Shown here in pieces: positions 395-20,600 of a stretch of 48,994 bases of DNA. Position 1 is the first letter of the stretch, and each line of letters begins with the position of its first letter. The notes beneath the pieces were generated by a model, which saw only the letters and a list, made by a program, of their open reading frames with translations, had not been told where the DNA came from and ran no database searches. The position numbers were made by a program, and so were the translations under genes. Location: positions 1 to 48,994 of the forward strand of contig NZ_JACXWX010000034.1 of NCBI RefSeq assembly GCF_014764505.1, given 5' to 3'. The stretch comes from Phormidium tenue FACHB-886. Its GTDB lineage: Bacteria; Cyanobacteriota; Cyanobacteriia; Elainellales; Elainellaceae.

Positions 395-856
395 ATGGGA
401 GATAACACTAAGGAAGAGAATTTCAAGAAACTGAATGAGGATTTGAGCTATGCCGGACAGCCAACCTCAGAACAGCTACAGGAAGCCGCCAGCGCAGGAT
501 TCAAAGCAGTGCTGAATTTGCGATCGTCTACTGAACCCGGCTCATCTGCAGATGAATCTGCTCAGGCTGCTGCTGCTGGACTCGATTACGCTAACGTGCC
601 GCTCAGCAATGAAAATCCTGATTCTGAACAGATTAGCAAGGCGCTCTGGGAGGTGGAGTCTCTCCCGAAACCTCTGTTGATTCACTGCGGGGCAGGCTTG
701 AGAGCAGGCGCGATCGCTCTAATTGCTAACGCAATTGAAGAAGAGCTTACTCTGGAGCAACTGACGGCTAAAGCGCAAGGGTTGGGAATTAAGCTAGAGC
801 AGCCACATCTTAAACAGTTTATTACAGAGCGTTACCCACTGCCTCCTGAAACCTGA
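395..856 (+). CDS. DUF442 / beta-lactamase-hydrolase-like phosphatase
   Basis: This 153-residue protein matches the DUF442 family (dual-specificity-phosphatase fold), which is often fused or adjacent to sulfide:quinone reductases and persulfide dioxygenases. The phosphate-binding loop is HCGAGLRAG at about residues 90-98, in which Cys and Arg are separated by four residues, as I recall for this family rather than the five of classical tyrosine phosphatases. The N-terminus has the family-typical pattern L(S)YAGQPT followed by GFKAVLNLR. The ATG follows an AAGGAG site by five bases. It reads toward the sulfonate transporter 325 bases downstream and is probably a separate unit. A role in sulfur metabolism is inferred from context; the substrate is unknown. 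Confidence 0.75.
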   Translation: MGDNTKEENFKKLNEDLSYAGQPTSEQLQEAASAGFKAVLNLRSSTEPGSSADESAQAAAAGLDYANVPLSNENPDSEQISKALWEVESLPKPLLIHCGAGLRAGAIALIANAIEEELTLEQLTAKAQGLGIKLEQPHLKQFITERYPLPPET

Positions 857-1180: not shown

Positions 1181-2008
1181 ATGACGCTTGAAAATATCCA
1201 GGATGCTGTACCTCGATCGCCCACCCGAGTGAAACGACTCTTGAATGCAGAGCAGTTGATTGCGTTAGCTTCGATTGGAACAGTATTGGCACTCTGGTTT
1301 CTGGCAACATCACTTCAGTGGGTTAGTCCGCTGTTCCTGCCGTCGCCGATCGCAGTGGGCTCAGCTTTCCTGGAGATTTTGCGAGACGGCTACAAAGGCA
1401 GTTCTCTCCTGTTTCACATTGTCCAAAGCATGTATCGGCTGCTGCTGGCGCTGCTGTTGGCAATTGTGACGGCAATTCCACTGGGTCTGTTGAGTGGATT
1501 TTCTAAGCCAATCCGCGCTGCGCTCGATCCCATCATCGAGTTTTACCGACCCTTGCCACCGCTGGCATACTACACGCTGCTGGTAATCTGGCTGGGAATT
1601 GAGAATCCATCCAAAATCGCCTTGCTATTTCTCGCTGCATTTGCCCCCCTGTATATTGCAGTGGTTTCTGGCGTACAGCGAATTTCTCGTGACCGAATCA
1701 ACGGAGCCCGATCGCTGGGGGCAACGAACTGGAACCTGTTTCTCTATGTAATCTTTCCGTCTTGCTTACCAGAGATATTCACAGGGCTGAGAACAGCGAT
1801 CGGCGTTGCCTATTCCACCTTGGTGGCAGCCGAAATGGTGGCAGCCGTCTCGGGCGTAGGCTGGATGGTACTGGATGCCAGCAAATTTCTCCGCAGCGAT
1901 GTGATTTTTGTCGGCATTATTCTTATGGGCATCATTGCCATTTTGATTGACAGTGGTATTCGCTGGATACAGCGCACTCAACTGCCCTGGATTGGGCATG
2001 ATTCTTGA
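1181..2008 (+). CDS. ABC transporter permease, TauC/SsuC family
   Basis: This is an inner-membrane permease of the sulfonate/taurine (also nitrate-type) importer family. The 275-residue length is typical. It has an N-terminal membrane segment at about residues 25-45, further hydrophobic helices, and the EAA-type cytoplasmic loop around RINGARSLGATNWNLF (residues about 172-187), which contacts the ATPase. The binding protein follows 28 bases later and the ATPase further on, so the three form one transport operon. The ATG has no clear ribosome-binding site. The substrate cannot be read from the permease; the MetY/MetX, SfnB and DszA-like neighbours favour an organosulfonate. Confidence 0.85.
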   Translation: MTLENIQDAVPRSPTRVKRLLNAEQLIALASIGTVLALWFLATSLQWVSPLFLPSPIAVGSAFLEILRDGYKGSSLLFHIVQSMYRLLLALLLAIVTAIPLGLLSGFSKPIRAALDPIIEFYRPLPPLAYYTLLVIWLGIENPSKIALLFLAAFAPLYIAVVSGVQRISRDRINGARSLGATNWNLFLYVIFPSCLPEIFTGLRTAIGVAYSTLVAAEMVAAVSGVGWMVLDASKFLRSDVIFVGIILMGIIAILIDSGIRWIQRTQLPWIGHDS

Positions 2009-2036
2009 GGTGAATTATTGTAGGACGTTTTGAAGA

Positions 2037-3086
2037 ATGCAACTGAAACGAAGAAATGTACTGCTTGGCTTGGTCGGTTTAAGTCTGCCGCTCATCAGCT
2101 CTAGCTGCGCCAGCAGCGCCCCACAAGCTTCTTCCGGAGCAACTCCTTCCGGAGCAACTACCGCTGCAACTGCACCTGACAAAATTCGCATCGGCTATCA
2201 GGTGATTCCAAATGCAGAACTGCTGGCGAAGGCTTTGGGTTTGGCGGAGAAGGCATTCCCTAACTCGGAGGTGCAATACGTTAGCTTCGATTCGGGGCGG
2301 GATGTCAACACCGCTTTTGCGGCAAAGGGGATTGATTTCGGCTTAATCGGCTCTGTGCCCACCAGTGTGGGAATTGCTCGTGATCTACCCTATTATGTCT
2401 ACTTCATCCACGATGTAATTGGCAGTGCAGAAGCGCTGATCGTCAAAGACACGGTTTCATCCATTGCTGACCTCAAAGGCAAGAAAATCGGGACGCCGTT
2501 TGGCTCTACGGCTCATTTTTCTTTGCTGAATTTGTTGAAACTAGACAATATCGATCAGACAGCGTTGACGATTTTGGATCTGCAGCCGCCTGATTTAGTT
2601 GCAGCTTGGCAACGGGGCGACGTCGACGGTGGCTATCTGTGGCAGCCCAACTTGAGTAAGCTACAAAAAGCGGGCGGAACTGTTCTCAAAACATCGGCAG
2701 ATTTGGCGAAACAAGGAGTGGTGACAGCTGATGTAGGCGTTGTTAGCAAAGAATTCGCTGACAAATATCCCGATACGGTCAAACAGTATGTTTCAGTGCT
2801 GAATGAAGCTGTAAAAGCCTATCGCAGCGATCCGACAGCAGCAGCTCAGACGATCGCTTCTGAGCTGGGCATTTCTCCGGAAGAAAGCAAAGTCGCCATG
2901 AGCGAAATTATTTGGCTCGATTCTACTGAGCAGAAAGACGCTAAATACTTGGGCACTGCCGGACAGCCCAGCGAATTTGCCAAAATCCTGAAGGATTCAG
3001 CTGAATTTATGGTGACGCAGAAAAGTATTCCATCTGCCCCAGATTTGACTGCTTATGAAAAAAGCATTTACACGCAAGCGCTATAG
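2037..3086 (+). CDS. ABC substrate-binding protein, TauA/SsuA-like
   Basis: This 349-residue exported solute-binding protein belongs to the NitT/TauT family. The N-terminus (KRRNVLLGL, a hydrophobic stretch, then SSSCAS at about residue 24) resembles a twin-arginine and/or lipoprotein signal, although the residues before the Cys are not an ideal lipobox. A low-complexity Ala/Ser/Thr/Gly linker follows to about residue 45. The mature domain opens with IRIGYQVIPNAELLAKALG, the usual start of taurine/sulfonate-binding proteins, and contains the family pattern DLKGKKIGTPFGSTAHF. It should capture the ligand outside the membrane and deliver it to the permease encoded just upstream. Sulfonate or taurine is inferred from context. 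Confidence 0.85.
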   Translation: MQLKRRNVLLGLVGLSLPLISSSCASSAPQASSGATPSGATTAATAPDKIRIGYQVIPNAELLAKALGLAEKAFPNSEVQYVSFDSGRDVNTAFAAKGIDFGLIGSVPTSVGIARDLPYYVYFIHDVIGSAEALIVKDTVSSIADLKGKKIGTPFGSTAHFSLLNLLKLDNIDQTALTILDLQPPDLVAAWQRGDVDGGYLWQPNLSKLQKAGGTVLKTSADLAKQGVVTADVGVVSKEFADKYPDTVKQYVSVLNEAVKAYRSDPTAAAQTIASELGISPEESKVAMSEIIWLDSTEQKDAKYLGTAGQPSEFAKILKDSAEFMVTQKSIPSAPDLTAYEKSIYTQAL

Positions 3087-3240
3087 AGCATGACAGGATA
3101 ACTGCAAGGTTGCCTTTTACGCCTTGCTGCTGATCCTCCCTTGCTCCCTTAAATCAGGCATATCTCAGACATACTCTCAGACATATTCATAGCTTTCCGT
3201 TCAGCAAATTAATGCCCTACTGATCTCCCCGGAGCCACTT

Positions 3241-4047
3241 ATGACCGCCCCTTCCCACGCGACAGCAGCCATTTCTACCGGAAATGATGTGGCTCATCTC
3301 TTCAATGTTGGAGTCACTTTTGGTGCATCAGGTCAGCAGGTTGACGTGCTACAAGGCATCGACTTGGAGGTGCAACCCAGTGATTTTGTTTGCGTTCTGG
3401 GTTCCTCCGGCTGCGGTAAAACAACGCTGCTGCGCGTTTTAGCAGGCTATCAACCGCCAACGACAGGTTCGGTCGTGGTTTCTGGAAAACTCCACACTCA
3501 ACCCAACCCAGATGTAGGGGTGGTCTTCCAGCGCCCCAATCTGTTTCCATGGCTGACGCTCGCCCGAAATGTAGATTTTGGTCCCAAAATGCGAGGCGTT
3601 AGCAAACAAGAACGGCGGCAGCGAGTTTCGCACTACCTGGAAATGGTAGGGCTGACTGATGCTGCGCATCTGCTGCCGCACCAGCTTTCCGGAGGAATGC
3701 AGCAGCGAGTGGCGATCGCCCGGACCCTTGCGGCTGACCCCCAGCTGGTATTGATGGATGAACCCTTCGGCGCGCTGGACGCACTAACGCGTGAATCAAT
3801 GCAGATCCACCTAAAAACGATCTGGCAACAGACGCGCAAAACTATCTTTTTCATCACGCATGATGTGGAAGAAGCCTTGCTGCTGGCAAACCGGATTATC
3901 GTAATGCATGCCCGTCCGGGGCGAATTGTTCAAGAGTTTAAGAACGCCTTTGCAGCCCGCAGTGAGTCAGCCACACAGCTGCGCCTATCCAGGGAATTCA
4001 TTGAGATGCGAGAACATCTAGTGGCAAACATCCGGGAGACTAGCTAG
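3241..4047 (+). CDS. ABC transporter ATPase, TauB/SsuB-like
   Basis: This 268-residue nucleotide-binding subunit powers the importer. Visible motifs are Walker A GSSGCGKTT (about residues 54-62), the Q-loop VVFQRPNLFPWL, the signature LSGGMQQR (about 150), Walker B LVLMDEP (about 170) and the switch THDVEEAL. FQxxxLFPW and the AL(D)ALTRE segment are typical of the nitrate/sulfonate/taurine ATPases. GGAG lies shortly before the ATG. The gap of 154 bases after the binding protein is longer than usual within an operon but holds no convincing terminator. Function is secure at family level; the substrate is inferred. Confidence 0.88.
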   Translation: MTAPSHATAAISTGNDVAHLFNVGVTFGASGQQVDVLQGIDLEVQPSDFVCVLGSSGCGKTTLLRVLAGYQPPTTGSVVVSGKLHTQPNPDVGVVFQRPNLFPWLTLARNVDFGPKMRGVSKQERRQRVSHYLEMVGLTDAAHLLPHQLSGGMQQRVAIARTLAADPQLVLMDEPFGALDALTRESMQIHLKTIWQQTRKTIFFITHDVEEALLLANRIIVMHARPGRIVQEFKNAFAARSESATQLRLSREFIEMREHLVANIRETS

Positions 4048-4111: not shown

Positions 4112-5437
<1,326 letters not shown>

Positions 5438-5441
5438 ACGC

Positions 5442-6536
5442 ATGAATTATCAGCAGTTCATTCCGCCGGAAACCCAGTTTTATCACCTTTCTGAACCGTT
5501 TCATCTGGAATCAGGAGCGGTATTGTGGGATGTGCAAATTGCTTACCAAACCTGGGGACAGCTAAACGTAAATCGAGATAACGCTGTCTGGATTTGTCAT
5601 GCGCTGACGGGCTGGCCAGATGCCGCAGACTGGTGGGAGTCGCTGTTTGGAACCGGAAAGGCATTTGATCCAGACATTGATTTTGTGGTGTGCAGCAATG
5701 TGCTGGGGAGCTGCTACGGCACCACCGGACCCACCAGCCTCAATCTCCAAACGGGAAAGCCCTACGGCGCAGCGTTTCCGGAAATTACCGTCCGCGACAT
5801 GGTGCGCCTGCAGGCAGTGCTGCTGGAGGCACTCTCGATTCAGCGCTTAAAGCTGGCGATCGGCGGTTCCTTGGGCGGAATGCAGGTTTTAGAGTGGGCG
5901 CTGTTGTATCCCGAAAAAGTAGCAGCGATCGCCCTGATTGCTGCTTCTGGAAAACATTCTGCCTGGTGTATCGGCTTAAGCGAAGCCCAGCGCCAAGCTA
6001 TTTACGCCGATCCAGCCTGGCAGAATGGCAACTATGCTCCCACCGATCCACCTGCAGCAGGGCTAGCAGTGGCGCGAATGATCGCTATGAACCTGTATCG
6101 GTCTTGGGCAAGCTTTGAGGAACGATTTGGTCGGCAGCGCCACATCGAGCAACCTGGTCAGCCTTATGCGATCGCCAGCTATCTGCACCACCAAGGGCAA
6201 AAGCTGGTTGAGCGATTTGATGCCAATACCTACGTGCGGCTAACACAGGCAATGGATAGCCATGATGTGTCCCGCGATCGCGGTGAGTATGCTGCTGTTC
6301 TGGCGCAGATTCATCAACCTGCGCTAATTGTGGCGATCGACTCAGATATTTTGTATCCGCCGATCGAACAGCAAGAGTTGGCAGCCCTGATGCCAGCGGC
6401 TCAGCTCCAGTTTCTTTACTCTCGCCATGGACACGATGCTTTTTTAATTGACATGGATGCACTCAATGACCTTATCGTGTCTTTTTGTCGTTCGCTTCTG
6501 CTTCACGATGGCATTCCAAAAACAGTCCACATTTGA
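5442..6536 (+). CDS. metX: Homoserine O-acetyltransferase
   Basis: This enzyme acetylates homoserine with acetyl-CoA to supply MetY. It is an alpha/beta-hydrolase-fold acyltransferase of 364 residues. The nucleophile is Ser143 in GGSLGGMQ, with Asp302 in DSDILYPP and His331 in GHDAF as the likely rest of the triad. I place the start at the ATG at 5442 (MNYQQFIPPE), four bases after the metY stop; the longer open frame from 5376 lies inside metY and adds unrelated residues. The stop overlaps the GAGGAAG site of the next gene, so the membrane protein that follows is probably co-transcribed. Confidence 0.9.
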   Translation: MNYQQFIPPETQFYHLSEPFHLESGAVLWDVQIAYQTWGQLNVNRDNAVWICHALTGWPDAADWWESLFGTGKAFDPDIDFVVCSNVLGSCYGTTGPTSLNLQTGKPYGAAFPEITVRDMVRLQAVLLEALSIQRLKLAIGGSLGGMQVLEWALLYPEKVAAIALIAASGKHSAWCIGLSEAQRQAIYADPAWQNGNYAPTDPPAAGLAVARMIAMNLYRSWASFEERFGRQRHIEQPGQPYAIASYLHHQGQKLVERFDANTYVRLTQAMDSHDVSRDRGEYAAVLAQIHQPALIVAIDSDILYPPIEQQELAALMPAAQLQFLYSRHGHDAFLIDMDALNDLIVSFCRSLLLHDGIPKTVHI

Positions 6537-6545
6537 GGAAGAAGC

Positions 6546-8222
6546 GTGACCAGAAAAAGCTTAGAGACAAGTGTGTTTAAGCGGTTGAATCACGTTTTGA
6601 TCGTACTGTTGCCGATCGCTTATGTCATCACTTATTTAGACGTACATGGCAAGAGAGGAGCCTATTACTGGACACCCAATCAAGATCCAGATTACGCTTA
6701 CTTAATGAACTCGTTGGTTCTGGCGCTTTTTCAGGTTCCTCAACACACTGATCACCCCGGTACACCGCTACAGATATTAGGGGCGATCGTTCTGTGGATT
6801 AGCTATGCAGTTCAATCGCTGTTCGATCCAACGATCAATTTAGATTTAGCAGATCAGGTTTTAATGAATCCTGAGCTTTATCTGACATTATTCAATCTTG
6901 TACTGATTGGGGTAACAGCTTGTTCTCTGATCGCTCTAGGATGGGTAGCACTCCGTCTGAGCAACAATTTACTGTTGGCATTGATTCTTCAGATCAGCCC
7001 TTTGCTGCTGATCGCCACTTTTGCAGCATACGAACCGAGCCGGGTTGCCCCGGATGTTTTGCTGGTTTGCTTCAGCCAGATTTTGGCTTTAATTCTGGTT
7101 TGCTATTTGTATGGAAAAGATTCAGGGCGATCGTACAAGTTCAGCGTTGGATTGGGTGTGGTCTTGGGTGTAGGAATGGCAACCAAGGCGACTTTTTTAC
7201 CCACCTTTTTCTACTTTTTATTACCGCAAGGCTGGCGCAATAAAGCATTGGCGTTAGGCACAGCGCTGACTGCTTTTATTCTTGTGACTCTGCCTATTCT
7301 GCCGCGATATGGCAGAACCTTTGGCTGGATGACTGATATTGCCATCCGTACCGGGTCTTATGGCAAAGGCGAAGTGGGGCTGGTTGATGCATCCAACCTG
7401 CCTCGATATGCTAGCCTGCTGCTCTCGCGCAATCTTGTATTTTTCGCAATTCTGCTGATCGCAACGGCTACCTGTTTTGGATTTACTGTGTGTTGGACAA
7501 AGGGTAAAGCGCTACGGGCATCGCTGCCGCAGCCAGACTTTAGAAGAACTTATCTCCTGCTGGTGCTGACTAGTTTGGTCGGTTGGGGGCAGGTAATTTT
7601 AACGCTGAGACAACAGCCCTGGAGCCGCTACCTGTATCCCACCGCTGGATTGATGGGCTTTCTGGTGTTTTTGTTGGTTCAACTTTGTAGAGTAGCTATC
7701 CCTCTGCTTGGGGATAAATTCAGAATCCCAAAATTGAATTGGGTCATTCCAGCGATCGCGCTCACCTTTTGTGTTGCCATTAGCATCCAGCAGATTGATG
7801 CATCAGTGGATAACGTTGCTTCTAGTTCCAAAAAACGGCTGAAGGAACTGGCGAAGATAGAGAGAATCTTACAGAGCAACGAGTATCAAACCTGCGTTCT
7901 AGTCCGTTCCAGACGTGCCTCTACGCTTGAATCTGCCCTCAAGTATGGGGATTTTTGGGCAGGCAAAAAGCTTTCAAAGCGGTTAGACCATCTCTATCCT
8001 CAGCTAGTTTTTTATACTGATAAAGACAGCAGCTTTGAAACCTTTGCCAATCAGCCTGTGAGTCTTGCGGCTTTGGCAGAGCAGGGTAAAGGCTGCGTGC
8101 TCCTGGAAAGCTTTGCAATGCCCATTAACACCTGGAAAGCAAACTATCGACCGCTGCAGCCGATCGACGCAGTTTTTGAGGGCAAATTTGAAGGACTTTA
8201 CCGGCTCAAACTAGATCAATAG
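6546..8222 (+). CDS. Polytopic membrane protein, GT-C glycosyltransferase-like
   Basis: This 558-residue integral membrane protein has roughly ten or more hydrophobic segments and a C-terminal soluble part after about residue 420. The first periplasmic loop contains NQDPDYAYL and TDHPGTPLQ; acidic residues in this loop are the hallmark of GT-C enzymes (PMT/ArnT/DUF2029 types) that use lipid-linked sugars. The start is a GTG at 6546, preceded by GAGGAAG that overlaps the metX stop. Its tight coupling to metX looks accidental or lineage-specific, since no sulfur role is evident. Family assignment is by fold pattern only; it could be an uncharacterised membrane protein. Confidence 0.5.
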   Translation: MTRKSLETSVFKRLNHVLIVLLPIAYVITYLDVHGKRGAYYWTPNQDPDYAYLMNSLVLALFQVPQHTDHPGTPLQILGAIVLWISYAVQSLFDPTINLDLADQVLMNPELYLTLFNLVLIGVTACSLIALGWVALRLSNNLLLALILQISPLLLIATFAAYEPSRVAPDVLLVCFSQILALILVCYLYGKDSGRSYKFSVGLGVVLGVGMATKATFLPTFFYFLLPQGWRNKALALGTALTAFILVTLPILPRYGRTFGWMTDIAIRTGSYGKGEVGLVDASNLPRYASLLLSRNLVFFAILLIATATCFGFTVCWTKGKALRASLPQPDFRRTYLLLVLTSLVGWGQVILTLRQQPWSRYLYPTAGLMGFLVFLLVQLCRVAIPLLGDKFRIPKLNWVIPAIALTFCVAISIQQIDASVDNVASSSKKRLKELAKIERILQSNEYQTCVLVRSRRASTLESALKYGDFWAGKKLSKRLDHLYPQLVFYTDKDSSFETFANQPVSLAALAEQGKGCVLLESFAMPINTWKANYRPLQPIDAVFEGKFEGLYRLKLDQ

Positions 8223-8277: not shown

Positions 8278-9141
8278 ATGAGTATTCACAGCCCCGTTCT
8301 ACCCAAGCTAATTTTCGAGAATTTGCCACGCGTTGAGGCAGATCTCCATTACCTCGTTCCGATGGCAGAAAGACCCGTCAACTACACCTACGAGCCACCA
8401 CCAGGTGTTCCCCGCCAGAACGGAGTTTATGAAACGCGTAGATTGCCTATTCGCAATGCACGAGCCATTGCCCAAGATCTGTCACTCGATCGAGAAGGTG
8501 CTGCGCTAGTCGTTTATCCAACGGCTGTTCACGATTTCTACGATGAAGCCGAAGTCCGTCGAGTTTACTATCCAGAAGCTGAGCGGCTTTTAGCTGAAGT
8601 CACAGGTGCAACTAGGGTGTTGGTGTTTGATCACAATGTCCGTAATCTCGATCGGGCACAGCAGGGCAAAAGCAACGCCAGAGAGCCAGTCAAGCGTGTA
8701 CACAACGATTTCACCGCAAAATCTGGTTATACCCGCGCTCAGGCTGAGTTAGTAGCGCGGGGAATCGAAAATTCTGATGCCTTGCTGCAACAGCGTTTTG
8801 CTATAGTCAACCTGTGGCGGCCGATCGCCGCTCCGGTTCAAGCTTCTCCCTTGGCGGTATGTGACGCGCAGAGTATTGCACCAGCCGATCTCGTTGCAGG
8901 GGATTTGGTGTATCGCGATCGGATTGGTGAAACCTATGCGATAACCTACAGCCCAACGCATCGCTGGTTTTACTTCCCGCAAATGCAACGAGACGAGGCA
9001 GTATTGATCAAATGCTTCGACTCTGCCACAGATGGACGAGCCAGATTTGCTGCCCACACCGCATTCGATGACCCCACAACGCCAGCCCATGCCCCAGCGC
9101 GTGAGAGCATTGAACTGCGATCGCTGATCTTCTACGGTTAA
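8278..9141 (+). CDS. CmcJ/NvfI-family non-heme iron oxygenase-like protein
   Basis: This 287-residue protein resembles the CmcJ/NvfI family (cephalosporin 7-alpha-methoxylase partner CmcJ and fungal endoperoxidase NvfI), an Fe(II)/2-oxoglutarate-type fold. Family features visible are the N-terminal NYTYEPPPGVPRQNG, the VVYPTAVHDFYDEAEV segment, VHNDFTAKSGYTR supplying an HxD pair, and a later His in RFAAHTAFDDPT that could complete an HxD...H facial triad. RPIAAPVQASPLAVCDAQSI is also typical. GAGGAAG precedes the ATG. The gene ends the metYX run. Its substrate is unknown; the surrounding organosulfur genes make a small sulfur compound plausible, but that is inference. Confidence 0.7.
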   Translation: MSIHSPVLPKLIFENLPRVEADLHYLVPMAERPVNYTYEPPPGVPRQNGVYETRRLPIRNARAIAQDLSLDREGAALVVYPTAVHDFYDEAEVRRVYYPEAERLLAEVTGATRVLVFDHNVRNLDRAQQGKSNAREPVKRVHNDFTAKSGYTRAQAELVARGIENSDALLQQRFAIVNLWRPIAAPVQASPLAVCDAQSIAPADLVAGDLVYRDRIGETYAITYSPTHRWFYFPQMQRDEAVLIKCFDSATDGRARFAAHTAFDDPTTPAHAPARESIELRSLIFYG

Positions 9142-9460: not shown

Positions 9461-11749
9461 ATGACTCCTAATTTCCTAATTTCTGATCCTTCGACCACGA
9501 TCGCAATCGTCGGGGCTGGCTTTAGTGGGTCTTTGGTAGCTGCCAACCTGTTGAAAACTGCCACCCGACCGCTAATCATCAAATTAATTGAGCGCGATCA
9601 TGCGATCGGCAAGGGCGTTGCCTACAGTACGGAGACTGACAGCCATTTGCTAAACGTTTCTGCAGGCAATATGAGCGCGTTTCCAGATGATCCAACACAT
9701 CTGCTGCGCTGGCTGACCTATAATCGCAGCGAGCTGGCGACCTTCCTGCCGGATGAAGTGAATGCCAGCACGTTTATTCCCCGAAAAATTTACGGTCTTT
9801 ACCTCCAATCCATCCTGGAGGAAGCAGAAGCAACGGCATCGAGTAACGTTCGACTGGAGCGCTTGAGCGATGAAGTCGTCGCAGTAGAGCCAGAGGGCAA
9901 CGGCGCGATCGTTTCTCTCCGCAGCAGCCTGCGGTTTTTCGCCAACAAGATTGTGCTGGCGCTCGGAAATTCACCGGCCACTCCCCTCGCCTCCCAATCC
10001 TCGGAACGTCAGGACGATCGCCTGCGAAATGCCTGGTCAGCTAATGCTCTAGCAGATTTAGAGCCAGATGCAAGCGTGCTGCTGATTGGCACAGGGCTAA
10101 CAATGGTAGACATGGTCGTGTCGCTCCATCAGCAAAACCACCGTGGCAAAGTGTATGCTATCTCTCGACGCGGCTTATTCCCGCTCCCGCATCAAGCCAC
10201 CAAACCTTATCCTGCTTTCCTCACCCCAGAAACCGCACCCAAAACGGCTCGAGGCTTACTGCGGCGAGTGCGGGCAGAAGTGAAAACGGCTATGGCTCAG
10301 GGCTATGACTGGCGATCGGTTATAGATGCGCTGCGGCCAATTACGCAGCAACTCTGGCAGCAGCTTCCCACCCCTGAACAGCAGCGCTTTTTACGCCATC
10401 TCAAACCCTATTGGGAAGTCCATCGTCACCGGATCGCTCCCAAGATTGGAGAAACTGTCCAAGAAATGCTGGACTCTGGGCAGCTCAGCGTTTCAGCGGG
10501 GCGGATTCAAGCTTATCAGGACTCACCAGATGCTATAGCAGTCACCATTCGTCAACGCCAAACGCAAACCTCTAGGGTGTTGAACGTCAGCCGTGTTGTG
10601 AACTGCACCGGCGTAGAAGCCGATTACCGCCGATCGCCTCAGCCGCTGCTCGCCGATCTGCACTCCCAGCGCTTGATCCGCTATAACAAAATTGGCTTGG
10701 GGTTGGATACTGCCGCGAATGGTGCCGTATTAAATGCAGATGGCAATATGTCGTCGTTGCTCTATACGCTGGGAACCCCGCGCAAAGGAGATCTATGGGA
10801 AACGATCGCTGTTCCAGAACTGCGAGGGCAGGCGCAGGCATTAGCCGAGGTGGTGTTACAATCCCTGCCTGTGCGGGTGCGTCCTGTTCCTAAGATTTCT
10901 CAATCCGTTGCTCGCGCCTCCTATCCAGCGATTTCATCATCCACTTTGTTGTTTCGGCAATTCTTTGATCCTGAATCCAGCACCTATACGTACCTGATTG
11001 CCGACAGCCAAACGAAAGATGCTGTTCTGGTTGATCCAGTGTTAGAGCAGGTTGACCGCGATTTAACCTCGCTGCAGGAACTGGGATTAACGCTCCGCTA
11101 CTGTCTGGAAACTCACATTCATGCCGATCACATCACCGGCGCGGGCAAGCTGAGGCAGCAAACGGGGTGTCGGGTCTTGGTGCCCCAGAATGCCACTGCC
11201 AAATCTGCAGATTACTCGCTTGCCGACCGGGAAACGTTAGCGGTGGGAGCGGTGACGATTGAGGCGATCGCCACACCAGGGCACACCCATAGCCACATGG
11301 CATATTTAGTGAATAACAGCCATCTCTTGACGGGTGATGCCTTGTTGATCCGGGGCTGTGGACGAACAGACCTTCAAGGAGGCGATGCTGGCACTTTATA
11401 TGATGCGGTAACGCAACGGCTATTCACCCTACCAGACAGTACGCTGGTTTATCCGGCTCACGACTACAAAGGGCGAACCACCTCCACAATTGACGAAGAG
11501 AAACGCTTGAATCCTCGATTTGCCGATCGAACCCGCGCCCAGTTTATTACAATCATGAGTCATCTGGGCTTGAGCTATCCCAAGAAAATGAATGAAGCGG
11601 TACCTGCAAATGAACACTGTGGTGACTTCATCCCGCAGGCTATAAGCGATGTCATTAGCTCTGAAGCAGACAATGAACGTGAAAAGCTAGAGCTAACACT
11701 ATCAACAAATACTGAGATCTTCAATGATTACTTTGCCATGTACATCTAA
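9461..11749 (+). CDS. FAD/NAD(P)-binding oxidoreductase fused to ETHE1-type persulfide dioxygenase
   Basis: This 762-residue protein has two enzymes in one chain. Residues about 10-480 form an FAD/NAD(P)-binding module (dinucleotide fold IAIVGAGFSGSLVAANLL, KGVAYSTET, LLNVSAGNMSAFPDDP, second GxG in LLIGTGLTMVDM), the family seen in uncharacterised hydroxyacylglutathione-like fusions. Residues about 495-700 form a metallo-beta-lactamase domain of the persulfide dioxygenase (ETHE1/Blh) type, with THIHADHITG (about 550), TPGHTHSH, TGDALLIRGCGRTDLQGGD (about 623-640) and YPAHDYKGRTTSTI. The GRTD...D region and single-iron ligand set are diagnostic of ETHE1. A tail of about 60 residues follows. 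The predicted task is oxidation of persulfide sulfur to sulfite, with the flavin module perhaps generating the persulfide. The ATG lacks a clear ribosome-binding site. Confidence 0.82.
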   Translation: MTPNFLISDPSTTIAIVGAGFSGSLVAANLLKTATRPLIIKLIERDHAIGKGVAYSTETDSHLLNVSAGNMSAFPDDPTHLLRWLTYNRSELATFLPDEVNASTFIPRKIYGLYLQSILEEAEATASSNVRLERLSDEVVAVEPEGNGAIVSLRSSLRFFANKIVLALGNSPATPLASQSSERQDDRLRNAWSANALADLEPDASVLLIGTGLTMVDMVVSLHQQNHRGKVYAISRRGLFPLPHQATKPYPAFLTPETAPKTARGLLRRVRAEVKTAMAQGYDWRSVIDALRPITQQLWQQLPTPEQQRFLRHLKPYWEVHRHRIAPKIGETVQEMLDSGQLSVSAGRIQAYQDSPDAIAVTIRQRQTQTSRVLNVSRVVNCTGVEADYRRSPQPLLADLHSQRLIRYNKIGLGLDTAANGAVLNADGNMSSLLYTLGTPRKGDLWETIAVPELRGQAQALAEVVLQSLPVRVRPVPKISQSVARASYPAISSSTLLFRQFFDPESSTYTYLIADSQTKDAVLVDPVLEQVDRDLTSLQELGLTLRYCLETHIHADHITGAGKLRQQTGCRVLVPQNATAKSADYSLADRETLAVGAVTIEAIATPGHTHSHMAYLVNNSHLLTGDALLIRGCGRTDLQGGDAGTLYDAVTQRLFTLPDSTLVYPAHDYKGRTTSTIDEEKRLNPRFADRTRAQFITIMSHLGLSYPKKMNEAVPANEHCGDFIPQAISDVISSEADNEREKLELTLSTNTEIFNDYFAMYI

Positions 11750-11954: not shown

Positions 11955-13316
11955 TTACACGCCGGCAAGTTCAGGTTGTTTTTGGGCGGGGGTGAGGCTG
12001 GCTTTGCCGAGTTTCAAGTTGTCGCGCAGGGTGGTTCCCTCATACTCTTTGCGGAACAAGCCCCGCCGCTGCAGTTCGGGGACAACAAATTCGACAAATT
12101 CTTCAAACGCTCCGGGAAGATAGGCAGGGGAAATGATGAAGCCATCTGCTTCGCCATTGCGGAAGCTTGCCTCTAGCTGATCGGCAATCTGCACGGGCGT
12201 TCCCACAACATGCGGCAGTAAGATTCCTTCTGCGTACAGTCTGCCAATGTCACGGAGGGTCAAGCCATCTTTTTTGCTAAGCCGCAAAGCGACTTCAAAT
12301 AATCCCTTAATGCCGCCGACTTCGACATCTTTGACGGGTTCATCTAGGGGATGCTGGGAGAAGTCGTAGTCCATGTGGCTTGACAGCGTAATCAAGCCCG
12401 AAATTGGATCGACCAGTTCGTTGTGAAAGGCTTGCTTTTCGCGGGCGATCGACTCAGTTTCGCCAATAAACGGAATCACAGCCGGAAAGATTTTCACATC
12501 GTCGGGATTGCGCCCATAGTTAACCGCGCGAGACTTCACATCGTCGTAATACGCTTTGCGACCGTCAGGCGTAGGGTCAATTTCAAAAATGATTTCTGCC
12601 CAGCGCGCTGCAAATTCTTTGCCTCGATTTGAGGAGCCTGCCTGCATGATGGCAGGTCGTCCCTGCGGCGATCGCGGTACAGTTAATGGTCCCTTTGACT
12701 TATACCATCGCCCCTCATGGTTGATATGGCGGACTTTGGTAGGATCGGCAAACAGTCCCGTTTCTTTGTCGAGAACGAGCGCATCTTCCTGCCAGCTATC
12801 CCACAATTTGAACGTGAGTTCGACAAATTCATCGGCGCGATCGTAGCGGTTTTCATGCTCTAGATGCGCCTCCAGTCCAAAGTTATACGCCTCTCCGATA
12901 TTGTGAGAGGTCACCACATTCCAGGCAATGCGCCCGCCCGATAGGTGATCGAGTGTGGCAAACGCCCGCGCTAGTTCGTAGGGATGATAGTAGGTGGTCG
13001 ATCGCGTAATTCCCAGCCCGATATGCCGAGTTGCCGCTGCCATCGTTGCGACGACATAGGCAGGATCGATCAGCACGGCTCCTTGAGTGCCGCGCCGCAG
13101 CGTTTCGTCAATACTGTCGCCGTAGCGGTGGGGGATTGCCAAAGCATCGGCAAAAAACACATAGTCAAATTTGCCCCGCTCCAGAACACGCCCCAAATTT
13201 TGATAGAACTCTGGGCGCAAAAAGTCGAGATCTTGGCGGGGATGCCGCCACTGCGGATGGCTGTGGGTGAGCTGAGAGGCAATCAGAAAACCTGCGAGGT
13301 GGAGTTGTTTGGTCAT
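11955..13316 (-). CDS. LLM-class FMN-dependent monooxygenase, NtaA/SnaA/DszA family
   Basis: This 453-residue TIM-barrel flavin monooxygenase uses reduced FMN from a separate reductase to cleave C-S or C-N bonds. The family includes DszA, SnaA, NtaA and the dimethyl-sulfone enzyme SfnG/MsuD-like proteins. Characteristic stretches are AGFLIASQLTHSHPQWRHP near the N-terminus, FDYVFFADAL, DHLSGGRIAWNVVTS and the EHENRYDRADEFVEL segment, followed by RPAIMQAGSSNRGKEFAARWAEIIF. It is the last gene of a minus-strand operon, seven bases after the DszC-like gene. No flavin reductase is encoded in the operon. The precise substrate is unknown. Confidence 0.88.
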   Translation of the reverse strand: MTKQLHLAGFLIASQLTHSHPQWRHPRQDLDFLRPEFYQNLGRVLERGKFDYVFFADALAIPHRYGDSIDETLRRGTQGAVLIDPAYVVATMAAATRHIGLGITRSTTYYHPYELARAFATLDHLSGGRIAWNVVTSHNIGEAYNFGLEAHLEHENRYDRADEFVELTFKLWDSWQEDALVLDKETGLFADPTKVRHINHEGRWYKSKGPLTVPRSPQGRPAIMQAGSSNRGKEFAARWAEIIFEIDPTPDGRKAYYDDVKSRAVNYGRNPDDVKIFPAVIPFIGETESIAREKQAFHNELVDPISGLITLSSHMDYDFSQHPLDEPVKDVEVGGIKGLFEVALRLSKKDGLTLRDIGRLYAEGILLPHVVGTPVQIADQLEASFRNGEADGFIISPAYLPGAFEEFVEFVVPELQRRGLFRKEYEGTTLRDNLKLGKASLTPAQKQPELAGV

Positions 13317-13322
13317 GAGAGG

Positions 13323-14528
13323 CTAAGTATAAAGCGTGAAGGTGGGAATTTGCTGATTGAGTACCCAGTTGCCGACCTCGTAGGATTTGTAGAAGACGGG
13401 GTCATGCAGGGTATGGGTGCGGACGTTGCGCCAGAAGCGATCGAACCGATGTTGAGTTGCCGCTGCGCGAGTGCCTGTGACCTCGAATATTTTGCTGGTG
13501 ACTTCAAGCGCAACTTTTGTACTCAGAACTTTGGCAGTGGCGATCGTAATTGCCGTTTCACCCCGTTCCGCAGCGGTAAGCTGTTCGCCTTTTTCCCAGG
13601 CAGCTTGTAAGACTGTCCCTACATAGTCGGCGTGGCTGTTGGTGGAAATCAGGCTCACCCATAGATCGCCATACCGTTCCAAGATGTAGGGGTCTTGGCT
13701 GGCGGTTTCAGCCGGAGAAAAGATCCAGGGGCGGGTGGTGGAAAGCGTGTACTGTTTGGCTGCTTCAAATGCGCCCAGAGCAATGCCGAGATAGAGATTC
13801 ACGAAGACTGCTTGAATCGCAGGCGTGACTAGCGTGGCAAAGGGAGCAGGATGCTCGGTGGCATTGGCATCGCCCAAAATTTCGTCTTTGTGGATGAAGA
13901 CGCGATCGAACGTCACGCTGCCGCTGTCGGTCTGGCGTTGCCCGATGTAGTCCCAATCATCATTAAGCTTAATGCCTTCGCGATGGCTTGGAATTGCTGC
14001 AAACAGAACATTCCCCAAATCCTGACGTGTGGCGGCGATCACCAGAATATCTGAGCCGACGCTGCCCGTCGCAAAGTTTTTGGTTCCGTCAAGTCGAAAG
14101 TTTTCTCCATCTGGAGTCAAAGTAAGATCGGGATCACGCGGATTCACCGCATCGCCCCAATACCAATTATTTTGGGCAGTCTCCTTGTAAAAGTGGGCTT
14201 TTTGTTCTGGTGTGCCGTACAGTTCTGGCATCACCGAATTGACGTAGTGATAGCCCAGCAGTTGTCCCAGCGAACCATCGGCTTTGGCAAGTTCTCGCAC
14301 TGCCTGTAAAGCCGTACTCCAGGTTTGTCCCCAGCCTCCATACTCAGTGGGAATTAAAAGTTTGAGCAGGCCGCTGTCGCGCAGGCGATCGAGTTCTTGA
14401 GTTGGGCTACCGCCTTTTGCATCTCGTTCAGCGGCAGTTTGGGCAAATTCTTGGGACAGGGAGATGGCGATCGCCAGATATTCTTTCGTCAGGTATTCTT
14501 TTGCTCCCCGTTCTGCTGCAATAACCAT
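13323..14528 (-). CDS. Acyl-CoA dehydrogenase-fold flavin monooxygenase, DszC/SfnB-like
   Basis: This 401-residue protein has the acyl-CoA dehydrogenase fold but belongs to the DszC/SfnB branch, which oxygenates organosulfur compounds instead of dehydrogenating CoA thioesters. Visible are LLIPTEYGGWG, GYHYVNSVMPELYGTPEQK, LDGTKNFATGSVGSD and the DDWDYIGQRQTDSGSV motif; the C-terminus carries NVRTHTLHDPVFYKSYEVGNW, typical of the group. A GGAG site lies seven bases before the ATG. It sits 26 bases after the preceding SfnB-like gene and 6 before the LLM monooxygenase, so the two flavoproteins and the monooxygenase probably act on a common substrate in turn. Confidence 0.83.
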   Translation of the reverse strand: MVIAAERGAKEYLTKEYLAIAISLSQEFAQTAAERDAKGGSPTQELDRLRDSGLLKLLIPTEYGGWGQTWSTALQAVRELAKADGSLGQLLGYHYVNSVMPELYGTPEQKAHFYKETAQNNWYWGDAVNPRDPDLTLTPDGENFRLDGTKNFATGSVGSDILVIAATRQDLGNVLFAAIPSHREGIKLNDDWDYIGQRQTDSGSVTFDRVFIHKDEILGDANATEHPAPFATLVTPAIQAVFVNLYLGIALGAFEAAKQYTLSTTRPWIFSPAETASQDPYILERYGDLWVSLISTNSHADYVGTVLQAAWEKGEQLTAAERGETAITIATAKVLSTKVALEVTSKIFEVTGTRAAATQHRFDRFWRNVRTHTLHDPVFYKSYEVGNWVLNQQIPTFTLYT

Positions 14529-14554: not shown

Positions 14555-15757
14555 CTAAAACGCACCGTGTCGAGGCGGATTAACGCCATTAAGAAAGTAA
14601 TTGCCAACGTTGATATATTTCCAGCGCACTGGATCATGTAACGTATGCGTACGGGCGTTGCGCCAATGGCGATTGTGATTAAATTGCTCCAGCGTAGATT
14701 TCGTGCCGCTCAGCTCAAAGAATTTATTAGTGATGAAAATTGCCGCTTCATCGGCAAGGGCTTTGGCTTCTGCAACTGCGATCGATGCTTCAATGGCGCT
14801 TTTTTGAGTTTTCACTTCCAGGGCGCGATCGATAAACTCGCCCGATCGCTTCAGGAGGGCTTCGGCTGCATGTAGCTTCACCGACATCTCTCCCACACCG
14901 TAGATAATTAGCGGTTCCTCGTAGCCATGCTCATACTCTGTTTCGATCCAGGGTCGAGTGTAGTTGCGAATGAAGTGGATTGCATCTTTGTAGGCGGCTC
15001 TAGCAATGCCAACATCCACAGCCGCATGAATGATTTGGGCAACGGCTCCCATTGTGGTTTGTTCTTCAAAAGCGAGATAGTGCCGCAAGACATCTTGCTC
15101 TTGAATGGGAATATTTTCGATCAGCGTTGTGCCGCTGGCAGTGGTGCGCTGCCCCATTCCGGACCAATCATCAATCACAGTCAGACCGGGGGTGTGGCGA
15201 TCGACAAAGACAATTACTGTTTTGTCGTCATCGTCAAGCGCCACGACAGGCACAATGTCTGCAAATAAGGCGCCTGTCGAGTAGAACTTTTTGCCGTTGA
15301 GCACATAGCCGGACTCAGTGCGCGTCAGACGAGTCTTGAAGGCGGTTGGCGTCTTGGTTCCAACTTCTGTAAACGCATTGCCAAAGCGTTTGCCCTGCAG
15401 CACCAGTTCAAAGAAATGTTGCTTCTGTGCTTCAGTTCCACTCAGACGAATCGCCTCCACCATATACAAATGGTTTTGCGGAATCTGTCCCAGGCTGGAA
15501 TCGCCTTCTGACAGCAAGGCGATCACTTCTGCTAGGGTAACGTTCGAGACAGATGCGCCGCCGTATTCTTTCGGCACAGTAATTCCTAATAGTCCGCTAG
15601 CGGAAAGTCGATCGAGTTCGGCATAGGGAAGCTGGCGATCGCGATCGCGTTCTGCCGAACCTTCAGCGAATTCTGCGGATAGCTGCTGGGCGATTTCAAT
15701 CGCTTCATGATCGCTCGTGATGATATGGACGCGATCGCGGGTAATAGCTTGTGTCAT
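14555..15757 (-). CDS. SfnB-family sulfur-acquisition oxidoreductase
   Basis: This 400-residue acyl-CoA-dehydrogenase-fold flavoprotein is closest to the SfnB sulfur-acquisition family. Diagnostic stretches are GITVPKEYGGASVSNVTLAE, GDSSLGQIPQNHLYMVEA, GKKFYSTGALFADIVPVVA, DDWSGMGQRTTASGTT and NARTHTLHDPVRWKYINVGN. A TTG at 15769 opens the frame, but I place the start at the ATG at 15757 (MTQAITRD). Its upstream neighbour is a 44-residue ORF ending 12 bases before. It is a paralogue of the next gene (13323-14528), sharing the RTHTLHDPV C-terminus. The predicted role is release of sulfur from sulfones or sulfonates under sulfate limitation. Confidence 0.87.
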   Translation of the reverse strand: MTQAITRDRVHIITSDHEAIEIAQQLSAEFAEGSAERDRDRQLPYAELDRLSASGLLGITVPKEYGGASVSNVTLAEVIALLSEGDSSLGQIPQNHLYMVEAIRLSGTEAQKQHFFELVLQGKRFGNAFTEVGTKTPTAFKTRLTRTESGYVLNGKKFYSTGALFADIVPVVALDDDDKTVIVFVDRHTPGLTVIDDWSGMGQRTTASGTTLIENIPIQEQDVLRHYLAFEEQTTMGAVAQIIHAAVDVGIARAAYKDAIHFIRNYTRPWIETEYEHGYEEPLIIYGVGEMSVKLHAAEALLKRSGEFIDRALEVKTQKSAIEASIAVAEAKALADEAAIFITNKFFELSGTKSTLEQFNHNRHWRNARTHTLHDPVRWKYINVGNYFLNGVNPPRHGAF

Positions 15758-15769
15758 GGCGAAATTCAA

Positions 15770-16624: not shown

Positions 16625-17347
16625 GTGAGCGAAGTATCCCCACTGTTACAAGTTACTACTATTCTGTTTGTTGCAACTTGTGTTCGATCGGCGATCGGCT
16701 TTGGAGATGCACTCCTTGCCATGCCGTTTCTCATTCTTGTAGTCGGACTACAAACGGCAACGCCATTGGTGGCTCTAGTGGCTCTAACCACCTCGCTCGC
16801 TCTCCTAGTTAATGAGTGGCGCACACTAGACTTACGTGGAATCTGGCAACTGGTTCTAGCAACGTTTATTGGTATTCCATTTGGCTTGATTCTGCTGCGT
16901 TTTGTGCCAGAGGATCTAGCTAAAGTTTGCTTAGGAACGCTGCTGATTCTCTATGGTCTTTACCACCTGTTTAGATTCTCTTTGCCACAAATACGTCATC
17001 CCGCAGTAGCGATCGTATTTGGTTTCATTGCAGGGGCATTTGGTGGAGCGTATAACACTAATGGCGCAATCATTGCGATTTACGGCACGCTACGAAAATG
17101 GGAGCCAGATTATTTCCGAATTAATCTACAGGGCTACTTTCTGTTAACGAGCTGGTTAATTGTTGCAGGTCACGGGTTAGCAGGATTATGGACACCAAAG
17201 ATTTTGCAGCTTTATCTCTACTCTCTTCCCAGTATTGTCATCGGTGCTTGGGTAGGTGTAGCCATTAGTAAAAGAATACCGAGGGAAATGTTTAGTCAGT
17301 TGATCTATGCTTCGTTGGTTTTGATTGGGATCGTGTTTGTCATTTAG
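16625..17347 (+). CDS. TauE/SafE-family anion exporter
   Basis: This 240-residue membrane protein has about seven to eight hydrophobic segments and the TauE/SafE signature: an N-terminal SAIGFGDALLAMPFL and the second repeat with FIAGAFGGAYNTNGAIIAIY. The family exports sulfite, sulfoacetate or related anions. Next to sulfonate uptake and desulfonation genes it probably removes toxic sulfite released inside the cell. The start is a GTG at 16625 with no strong ribosome-binding site. A transposase remnant lies immediately upstream, so the true promoter is uncertain. Confidence 0.82.
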   Translation: MSEVSPLLQVTTILFVATCVRSAIGFGDALLAMPFLILVVGLQTATPLVALVALTTSLALLVNEWRTLDLRGIWQLVLATFIGIPFGLILLRFVPEDLAKVCLGTLLILYGLYHLFRFSLPQIRHPAVAIVFGFIAGAFGGAYNTNGAIIAIYGTLRKWEPDYFRINLQGYFLLTSWLIVAGHGLAGLWTPKILQLYLYSLPSIVIGAWVGVAISKRIPREMFSQLIYASLVLIGIVFVI

Positions 17348-19510: not shown

Positions 19511-19693
19511 AGGCTCTACAGGTTTACCCCTGAGATAGAGACGTTACTGAGAAGCAGTAGTTACGCTACCAGATACGATCGTGTCCTACGAAATGTTTGC
19601 CTTTGCTTATCGAGTGAAAGTGGATATTTTGCAACCACGATCGCCTAAATTCACTATTTGTTCTGTTTAAAAAACGTTACACAAGTGGATCAC

Positions 19694-20590
19694 ATGAAAC
19701 CAGTCATCATTGTTCACGGTGGAGCCAAAACCATTTCAGAGGACAAAGCAGAGGCAAATCACACCGGATGCCGAGCAGCCACAGCAGCGGGGTGGCAAGT
19801 GCTTCAGAGCGGTGGTAGTGCTGCTGCTGCTGTCGAGGCAGCCATTCGCGTCCTTGAAGCTGACCAAACATTTAATGCAGGCTTTGGTTCAACCTTAAAC
19901 AGCGAAGGCGAAGTAGAGGTTGATGCAGCAATGATGGAAGGGAAAACGTTAGGTTGGGGTGCTGTCGCAGCCGTTCAAGGAGTCCGCCATCCTATTTCTG
20001 CTGCCCGTAAAATTATGGATGATAAACCTCGGTTGTTGATAGGACGAAGTGGCGAAAACTTTGCTCTAGAACATGGTCTGGAAATGTGCGCCCAAGACGA
20101 GCTGATCAGTGAAGAACAGTACCAGGAGTGGAAAGAGGAAGCTGAAGTTTTAGATCGTCCTAATACTGTTGGCTGTGTAGCACTCGATGTCAATGGTAAT
20201 TTGGTTGCTGGCACTTCCACAGGCGGAACTACTGGACAACCTCAAGGGCGAGTGGGGGATAGCGCCTTAGTTGGCTGTGGTTTATATGCCGATAATCGCT
20301 TGGGAGCTTGCTCAACAACAGGAGATGGGGAGTCCATTATTCCAGTTGTGCTGGCAAAGGCAGCGATCGATGCGTTAGCAGGAGGCAGACATCCCGATGA
20401 GGCAGCACAGCAGGCGATCGACACACTAGTAGATCGGGTAGAGGGAGAAGCAGGCTGCATTCTGCTCGATCGGCAAGGACGCATTGGCTGGGCACACAAT
20501 TCGTCAGATATGGCGGTTGCCTATATGAACGAAGATTTGAAGCAGCCTGCTACTTTTACCCGTAAAGACCAAGATAGAAAGATTGCCTAA
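19694..20590 (+). CDS. iaaA: Isoaspartyl peptidase / plant-type L-asparaginase
   Basis: This 298-residue Ntn-hydrolase cleaves itself before Thr158 (RPNTVGCVAL) to make active alpha and beta subunits. It opens with VIIVHGGA and has NAGFGSTLNSEGEVEVDAAM and GTSTGGTTGQPQGRVGDS, all typical of the family. It removes isoaspartyl residues from dipeptides and has asparaginase activity; in cyanobacteria such enzymes also finish cyanophycin breakdown by splitting beta-Asp-Arg. The start is the ATG at 19694 (MKPVIIVHG); the longer frame from 19658 adds unrelated residues. The ATP-grasp gene begins 10 bases after the stop, so the two are probably one operon. Confidence 0.92.
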   Translation: MKPVIIVHGGAKTISEDKAEANHTGCRAATAAGWQVLQSGGSAAAAVEAAIRVLEADQTFNAGFGSTLNSEGEVEVDAAMMEGKTLGWGAVAAVQGVRHPISAARKIMDDKPRLLIGRSGENFALEHGLEMCAQDELISEEQYQEWKEEAEVLDRPNTVGCVALDVNGNLVAGTSTGGTTGQPQGRVGDSALVGCGLYADNRLGACSTTGDGESIIPVVLAKAAIDALAGGRHPDEAAQQAIDTLVDRVEGEAGCILLDRQGRIGWAHNSSDMAVAYMNEDLKQPATFTRKDQDRKIA

Positions 20591-20600
20591 ACGGATAGTT

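Follow-up and report, generated by a model that had tools for sequence, protein, structure and literature searches.

This locus raises the question of what a flavin- and NAD(P)-binding module contributes when it shares a polypeptide with a persulfide dioxygenase. The window, by which we mean the whole stretch of 48,994 nucleotides analysed from Phormidium tenue FACHB-886 (contig NZ_JACXWX010000034.1), carries one uninterrupted open reading frame at 9461-11749 on the plus strand, encoding 762 amino acids with no internal stops. Pfam detected NAD_binding_9 at residues 15-170 of this chain (E 5.8e-38) and Lactamase_B at residues 506-667 (E 1.1e-17). The initial annotation had read the chain as an FAD/NAD(P)-binding module joined to a persulfide dioxygenase, and the reading frame, the Pfam and PDB matches and the recurrence of the fusion all agree with it. 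Its two-module layout was retained, but the domain limits were revised, the N-terminal module (N-module) ending near residue 470 rather than 480 and the dioxygenase spanning residues ~495-729 rather than 490-710. The gene and its parts are as follows.

9461-11749, plus strand: fusion gene, comprising an FAD/NADP monooxygenase-like module, an ETHE1-type persulfide dioxygenase and a conserved tail (open reading frame, Pfam, PDB sequence match, alignment)
9488-10870, plus strand: N-module, residues ~10-470, predicted FzmM/NMO-like class B monooxygenase fold (PF13454; VIA Z 29.8 to 8cp5 over 443 residues; model mean pLDDT 93.2)
9512-9529, plus strand: FAD Rossmann motif GxGxxG, residues 18-23 (GAGFSG; 17-row and 52-row alignments)
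10088-10102, plus strand: second (NADP) Rossmann motif, residues 210-214 (GTGLT), followed by SRRG at residues 235-238 (both alignments)
10871-10942, plus strand: linker, residues ~471-494 (pLDDT <50 at 473-494; variable in the 17-row alignment)
10943-11647, plus strand: ETHE1-type persulfide dioxygenase domain, residues ~495-729 (phmmer match to 4ysb; Foldseek identity to ETHE1-type structures)
11114-11131, plus strand: HIHADH, residues 552-557, with H552 as the expected first iron ligand by spacing to H57 of AcPDO (invariant in 17/17 except position 553)
11282-11284, plus strand: H608, expected second iron ligand from AcPDO (invariant in 17/17)
11336-11338, plus strand: D626, expected third iron ligand from AcPDO (invariant in 17/17)
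11669-11746, plus strand: C-terminal tail, residues 737-762, ending in YFAMYI (alignment of fusions and free dioxygenases)

The linker between the halves is predicted to be disordered. Beyond the dioxygenase domain the chain has an extra tail (residues 730-762), which was conserved in 19 of 21 fusions and was not found in the free dioxygenases checked. AlphaFold2 models were made of the N-module by itself and of the whole chain (mean pLDDT 80.7, pTM 0.67). In the latter, the N-module was mostly above 90, and confidence was low in parts of the dioxygenase half (e.g. residues 630-646 and 692-735) because only eight of the 52 alignment rows cover that half.

An assembly or sequencing error joining two genes had been named at the outset as something that could explain the frame away. 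We searched for the N-module in 388 genomes of the window's class (cyanobacteria) and found matches in 33. Intact fusion frames were present in 17 of the 388, the window's own genome included, and were distributed over six families (f1, f13, f16, f24, f32 and f36). A scan of named genomes, in which the best 80 of 195 loci were considered, yielded 73 free modules and seven fusions, all of them cyanobacterial. Three of these seven were contigs already in the class set, and the other four loci came from three assemblies. No fusion was detected in the 68 loci not labelled cyanobacterial among the same best 80 of 195. The fusion also occurs, as a single CDS matching over 100% of its length, on two complete plasmids, one from Nostoc sp. 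UHCC 0302 and one from Nostoc edaphicum CCNP1411; NCBI names both copies only “FAD/NAD(P)-binding protein”. Since intact frames recur in many genomes and on two complete plasmids, an assembly or frameshift artefact is ruled out.

Damaged or cut copies were found in three further genomes. The fusion was split into two parts about 4 kb apart in G332, had lost residues ~17-423 in frame while keeping the dioxygenase in G290, and lay at a contig end in G352. Two genomes with weak fragments (G338 and G275) were kept outside the fusion counts. A free module accompanied the fusion in three of the 17 genomes (G003, G006 and G030), and 11 of the 33 matching genomes had a free module only. No dioxygenase match besides the fused copies was found at E 1e-20 in 17 of the 20 genomes with an intact fusion, the other three (G155, G200 and G211) having one. 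Both halves also occur as free proteins in other cyanobacteria.

The C-terminal half (residues 496-726) had its best PDB sequence match in the Myxococcus ETHE1 protein 4ysb (E 3.1e-75), and it also matched human ETHE1 (4chl, E 5.1e-65) and the persulfide dioxygenase-rhodanese fusion 5ve3. It was nearer to ETHE1 than to glyoxalase II, scoring 256.8 bits with 4ysb and 71.1 bits with 1qh3, and the GloB model TIGR03413 did not reach its cut-off (118.2 bits, cut-off 200.8). In Foldseek it was 46-54% identical to ETHE1-type structures. Residues T551, H552, H554, A555, D556, H557, H608 and D626 were invariant in all 17 aligned fusions, with position 553 variable, as were R635, D637, H667 and C720. 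In the A. caldus persulfide dioxygenase (AcPDO) the iron ligands are given as H57, H113 and D130, and R139, D141, H171 and C224 as functional residues, in excerpts of PMC6060420. The iron-site and functional residues of the fusion correspond to these at an offset of 495-496, and the ligand spacing agrees within one residue; the mapping from one protein to the other is thus drawn from spacing and motifs.

The 2-His-1-Asp iron site and the HxHxDH motif of ETHE1-type persulfide dioxygenases are therefore present, as had been expected of a half said to carry all ETHE1 motifs. Judged by family and by its intact site, this half is a complete ETHE1-type persulfide dioxygenase, an assignment made from sequence and not from the whole-chain model, whose dioxygenase half has low-confidence stretches. 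It shares the iron-site and functional residues of the ETHE1-type enzymes 4chl (human), 4ysb (Myxococcus) and 8zbd (Beggiatoa), to which it is 47-54% identical. Unlike these stand-alone proteins, however, it forms the C-terminal half of a 762-residue chain and is followed by the extra tail. Persulfide dioxygenases joined to a partner enzyme are represented by the rhodanese fusion (5ve3-5ve5) and by Blh (DUF442-dioxygenase). Here the partner is an N-terminal flavin monooxygenase-like module instead of a sulfur transferase, and DUF442 is a separate gene. The Blh model NF040641 scored 101.9 bits on the fusion chain against a cut-off of 625, so this is not a DUF442-dioxygenase in one chain, and no rhodanese domain was found on the chain with Pfam and NCBIfam at E 0.001.

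The N-terminal half is a member of the NAD_binding_9 “FAD/NAD(P)-binding protein” family (PF13454), in which the module was free-standing in 73 loci among the best 80 of 195. Together with two conserved dinucleotide motifs, this upheld its description as a flavin/NAD(P) module. In the first motif, the 17-row fusion alignment showed invariant G18 and G20 and a nearly invariant G23, and in the 52-row family alignment all three were nearly invariant. In the second, G210-T214, S235, R236 and G238 were invariant among the fusions; across the family G210 and S235 were invariant and G212, L213, T214, R236 and G238 nearly so. An alignment lacking both flavin motifs and iron ligands, which would have spoken against the fused enzyme, was thus not what we obtained.

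Foldseek searches of the PDB with the N-module returned the aspartate N-hydroxylase FzmM first, followed by KtzI, DesB and PvdA, all of them N-hydroxylating monooxygenases; with the whole chain, FzmM was again first, followed by ETHE1 structures. VIA-align superposed the N-module on FzmM at Z 29.8 (rmsd 2.8, 443 residues aligned), with other entries at 26.3 or below (YpdA 26.3 over 315 residues, PvdA 26.0 over 385). By sequence, a profile of 49 N-module rows reached FzmM (8cp2) at E 7e-21. The motifs and the predicted fold display the class B (NMO type) layout, with FAD, NADP and helical domains in one chain, and the predicted fold matches FzmM, KtzI, DesB, PvdA and SidA. FzmM/CreE (8cp2, 8cp5) is the closest solved relative by both profile and fold, though the identity is only 22-23% and the N-module has ~470 residues against 600 in FzmM. 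By family, motifs and modelling, the N-module is thus predicted to have an FzmM/NMO-like class B monooxygenase fold, and oxygenase activity would be expected of it.

FzmM is described in excerpts of PMC10404684 as a classical single-component class B enzyme that uses NADPH and O2 and has an arginine-lined site for its anionic substrate. Four arginines of the N-module (R108, R292, R322 and R324) were invariant in the 52 family rows, and the profile alignment to 8cp2 misses the helical domain. If they lie close to the flavin, these arginines could help to bind an anionic substrate. The FMO and BVMO subgroups bear the fingerprint FxGxxxHxxxY/W, which was absent between the two Rossmann motifs of the window protein.

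Sulfide:quinone oxidoreductases and flavin disulfide reductases have a conserved catalytic cysteine pair. The initial annotation proposed that the flavin half produces persulfide, which could occur by SQR-like sulfide oxidation or by disulfide or polysulfide reduction, the product being handed to the dioxygenase half. The pathway logic is obvious beside a persulfide dioxygenase, and the dinucleotide domains do resemble disulfide reductases: YpdA (Z 26.3, 25.9 and 25.8) and thioredoxin reductases (Z 24.8 or below) matched the N-module, but over ~296-316 residues only, whereas FzmM gives the best fit to the entire module with its helical domain. In 17 fusions and 52 family rows we found no cysteine pair of the SQR or disulfide-reductase type. 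The single conserved cysteine is C382 (17/17 fusions, 48/52 wider-family rows), and none lies in the GAGFSG loop. The recognised neighbours, moreover, are sulfonate and sulfur-assimilation genes. Because only C382 is conserved, an SQR or disulfide-reductase mechanism, and with it a persulfide-making flavin half, is disfavoured. We regard this proposal as improbable, and a persulfide-forming flavoprotein of the SQR type was not supported.

The genes recognised around the fusion in the window are listed below.

395-856, plus strand: DUF442/sulfur-transferase-like protein (PF04273, E 5.8e-12; HCGAGLR loop)
1181-4047, plus strand: taurine/sulfonate-type ABC transporter, with permease (1181-2008), binding protein (2037-3086) and ATPase (3241-4047) (TauC, TauA and TauB models best, each under its equivalog cut-off)
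4139-5437, plus strand: O-acetylhomoserine sulfhydrylase, OAHS (TIGR01326, 711.9 bits, cut-off 495.1)
5376-6536, plus strand: open reading frame for MetX (NF001209, 407 bits, cut-off 331)
8278-9141, plus strand: CmcJ/NvfI family oxidoreductase, 319 bp upstream of the fusion on the same strand (NF041278, 334.5 bits, cut-off 80)
11955-13316, minus strand: LLM flavin monooxygenase, NtaA/DmoA family (TIGR03860, 531.6 bits, over cut-off)
13323-14528, minus strand: DszC-like protein (NF043015, 394 bits, under cut-off)
14555-15769, minus strand: SfnB (TIGR04022, 605.4 bits, over cut-off)
16625-17347, plus strand: TauE/SafE sulfite-exporter-like protein (PF01925, E 5.1e-27)

The DUF442 gene reported upstream of the fusion is present; it scored 52.9 bits with TIGR01244, under the cut-off of 85.85. 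From its gene content, the window looks like a sulfur-scavenging island.

Similar company was found elsewhere. Using blastp (E 1e-15, 30% identity, 60% coverage, ABC ATPase excluded), at least one core sulfur gene was detected near 11 of 20 intact fusion loci, compared with one of 20 control regions from the same genomes (Fisher p 0.0012). With near-copies collapsed, the count was nine of 16 fusion loci (Fisher p 0.0017). The window, L084, L100 and L101 were left out of the locus count, and the broken copies L080 and L085 were scored apart (2/2 with core genes). The positive loci were 11 of the 16 from the class-genome search and none of the four from the named-genome scan. The only control region with sulfur genes (L219: DUF442, OAHS and metX) shares a G223 contig with the fusion and is ~26 kb away from it. 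Nine of the 20 loci lacked a core sulfur gene by this strict test (L067, L069, L077, L081, L083, L102, L106, L107 and L129). The test is conservative, since L233 was scored as empty although two sulfonate-binding proteins are annotated by its fusion.

Recurrent neighbours of the fusion include SsuE (FMN reductase) and TauD. DUF442 was near four of 16 fusion loci (class-genome set, window excluded) versus one of 20 control regions. On the Nostoc sp. UHCC 0302 plasmid, genes for a binding protein, ssuD, ssuC, an ATPase and the fusion follow one another on one strand, with a gap of 7 bp before the fusion. Beyond the fusion, on the other strand, are genes for a symporter, an arylsulfatase and a formylglycine-generating enzyme. 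Free N-modules had core sulfur genes at four of 14 cyanobacterial loci (10 without) and at both Microcoleaceae loci, and those at L087, L090, L091, L098, L105 and L108 lie in ssu-type clusters. Among the best 80 of 195 loci, the 68 not labelled cyanobacterial included only six with a core sulfur gene, so a role in sulfur metabolism need not apply to every N-module. The genomic company of the fusion, where recognised, points to organic sulfur use.

We suggest that the fusion probably helps cells to scavenge sulfur from organic compounds. On balance, we favour a bifunctional organosulfur-scavenging enzyme, in which the flavin half would use NADPH and O2 to oxygenate an organosulfur compound and the iron half would turn glutathione persulfide into sulfite. 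Judging from the gene company, sulfonates and related compounds would enter through the sulfonate-type ABC transporter. The N-module, presumably a single-component NADPH/FAD monooxygenase of the FzmM/N-hydroxylase type by its fold, motifs and family, would then oxygenate a small, probably anionic, imported organosulfur compound. Glutathione persulfide could be a product of the N-module, could arise by sulfur transfer of the DUF442 type or could have another source. Given its family and site, the C-terminal non-haem iron module would convert it with O2 to glutathione and sulfite. Both modules would feed sulfite assimilation, from sulfite to sulfide and on to homocysteine via the neighbouring MetX and OAHS, and surplus sulfite could leave by TauE. 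The fusion would ensure co-production of two oxygen-dependent sulfur-handling steps, and it may couple them.

The tree of N-modules was built from 77 rows out of 108, after free modules had been thinned and L084, L085, L133 (a duplicate of L093) and the duplicates L103, L104 and L110 had been removed. The 22 fusions, including the split copy L080, grouped in a single clade that also takes in a free module from Tychonema and another from Microcoleus (98 SH-aLRT). As the two free modules are nested inside this clade, the fused or free state has to change twice on the tree: the fusion is gained once and is later undone once. In the Microcoleus genome a dioxygenase-like region with a related tail persists apart from the module but is broken by stop codons, and the Tychonema genome gave no dioxygenase match at E 1e-20. 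In the dioxygenase tree (L100, L101 and L205 excluded), 21 of 23 fused rows fell into two neighbouring clades, whose union was not itself a supported clade. The tail-less fusions L083 and L107 grouped with free dioxygenases with weak support (86). One fusion event and two both fit the trees and cannot be told apart.

In seven close pairs, dN/dS ranged from 0.087 to 0.142 in the N-module and from 0.044 to 0.135 across the dioxygenase and tail. These low values show that both halves are kept under purifying selection. To judge from the secondary separation in Microcoleaceae and from the G290 copy, which lost its N-module in frame, each half may be able to function without the other. Such cases, the occurrence of both halves as free proteins and the linker predicted to be disordered would fit a pair of independent enzymes from a single regulon that were joined to fix their stoichiometry and have neither substrate nor intermediate in common. 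This explanation overlaps with the favoured one and is a credible but lesser candidate, as retention of the fusion in six families and conservation of the fusion-linked tail suggest that the union of the halves matters. A flavin half reduced to a regulatory or scaffold module, leaving only the dioxygenase at work, would accommodate the G290 copy, but is very unlikely given the conserved FAD and NADP motifs and the dN/dS of the N-module.

A more specific form of the organosulfur-scavenging reading can be offered tentatively. Oxygenation by the flavin half might itself break the C-S bond, with the sulfur passing as glutathione persulfide to the fused dioxygenase and emerging as sulfite, all within one protein. 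For example, the flavin half could S-oxygenate a thiol acid, or it could N-hydroxylate an acid resembling cysteate or taurine, the sulfonate counterpart of the aspartate used by FzmM. If true, sulfite would be formed here in a way that differs from SsuD, TauD and SfnG.

In the excerpts seen of the relevant papers, the partner in persulfide dioxygenase fusions is a sulfur transferase, both in Blh (PMC5823870) and in the rhodanese fusions (PMC6060420). Among the matches listed in our literature search, from which subscription papers were mostly outside coverage, we found no published description of a monooxygenase-dioxygenase fusion. Matches listed for YdhS/COG4529 were mostly unrelated papers, and the portion available of PMC7347517 does not mention cyanobacteria. 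Fusion of a persulfide dioxygenase to some partner was thus already known, and what is new here is a partner of the monooxygenase type. A knockout of the alkanesulfonate monooxygenase in Nostoc punctiforme was unable to colonise feathermoss, according to excerpts of PMC7784912. By analogy, this suggests feathermoss colonisation as an ecological setting for functionally related sulfonate use. The fusion recurs across cyanobacterial families, forms part of a sulfonate operon on one of the complete plasmids and has sulfur genes nearby elsewhere. It links some of PF13454, a flavoprotein family that has received little study, to the use of organic sulfur.

The fusion protein ends in a C-terminal tail, and its gene is preceded in the window by two further ORFs:

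6546-8222, an ORF of 558 aa, lying between MetX (5376-6536) and the CmcJ/NvfI gene
8278-9141, a CmcJ/NvfI family oxidoreductase adjoining the fusion, also found at the damaged fusion loci L080 and L085
11669-11746, the C-terminal tail, ending in YFAMYI, also found at L067-L082, L102, L106, L129, L100 and L101

The tail ending in YFAMYI was present in 19 of the 21 intact fusions checked, the window included; the two exceptions were L083 and L107. It was absent from all 24 free dioxygenase loci examined (L020-L038 and L207-L211). It was additionally recovered from a fragment at a contig end (L100) and from a short remnant in genome G005 (L101). In the predicted structure the tail was modelled as a helix, with low confidence.

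At E 0.001, neither Pfam nor NCBIfam gave a match to the 558 aa ORF. Elsewhere in the window (19658-21872), an Asparaginase_2-family gene and another ORF share a few overlapping bases, and the latter had a weak, sub-threshold ATP-grasp match. On a Nostoc plasmid, genes for an arylsulfatase and a formylglycine-generating enzyme (L232, 11755-15070) were found downstream of the ssu-fusion operon, on the opposite strand.

No CmcJ/NvfI oxidoreductase was detected near any of the 20 intact fusion loci using the strict test (blastp at E 1e-15, 30% identity and 60% coverage). Homologues were found close to both damaged fusions, with 61% and 69% identity. At L080 (4202-10847, genome G332) the fusion gene was in two parts, now about 4 kb apart, and this genome also carried free ETHE1-like genes. 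L085 (8958-10010) was a natural in-frame deletion in a genome that is 99% complete (G290), in which almost the entire flavin module was gone and the start was retained along with the dioxygenase and tail.
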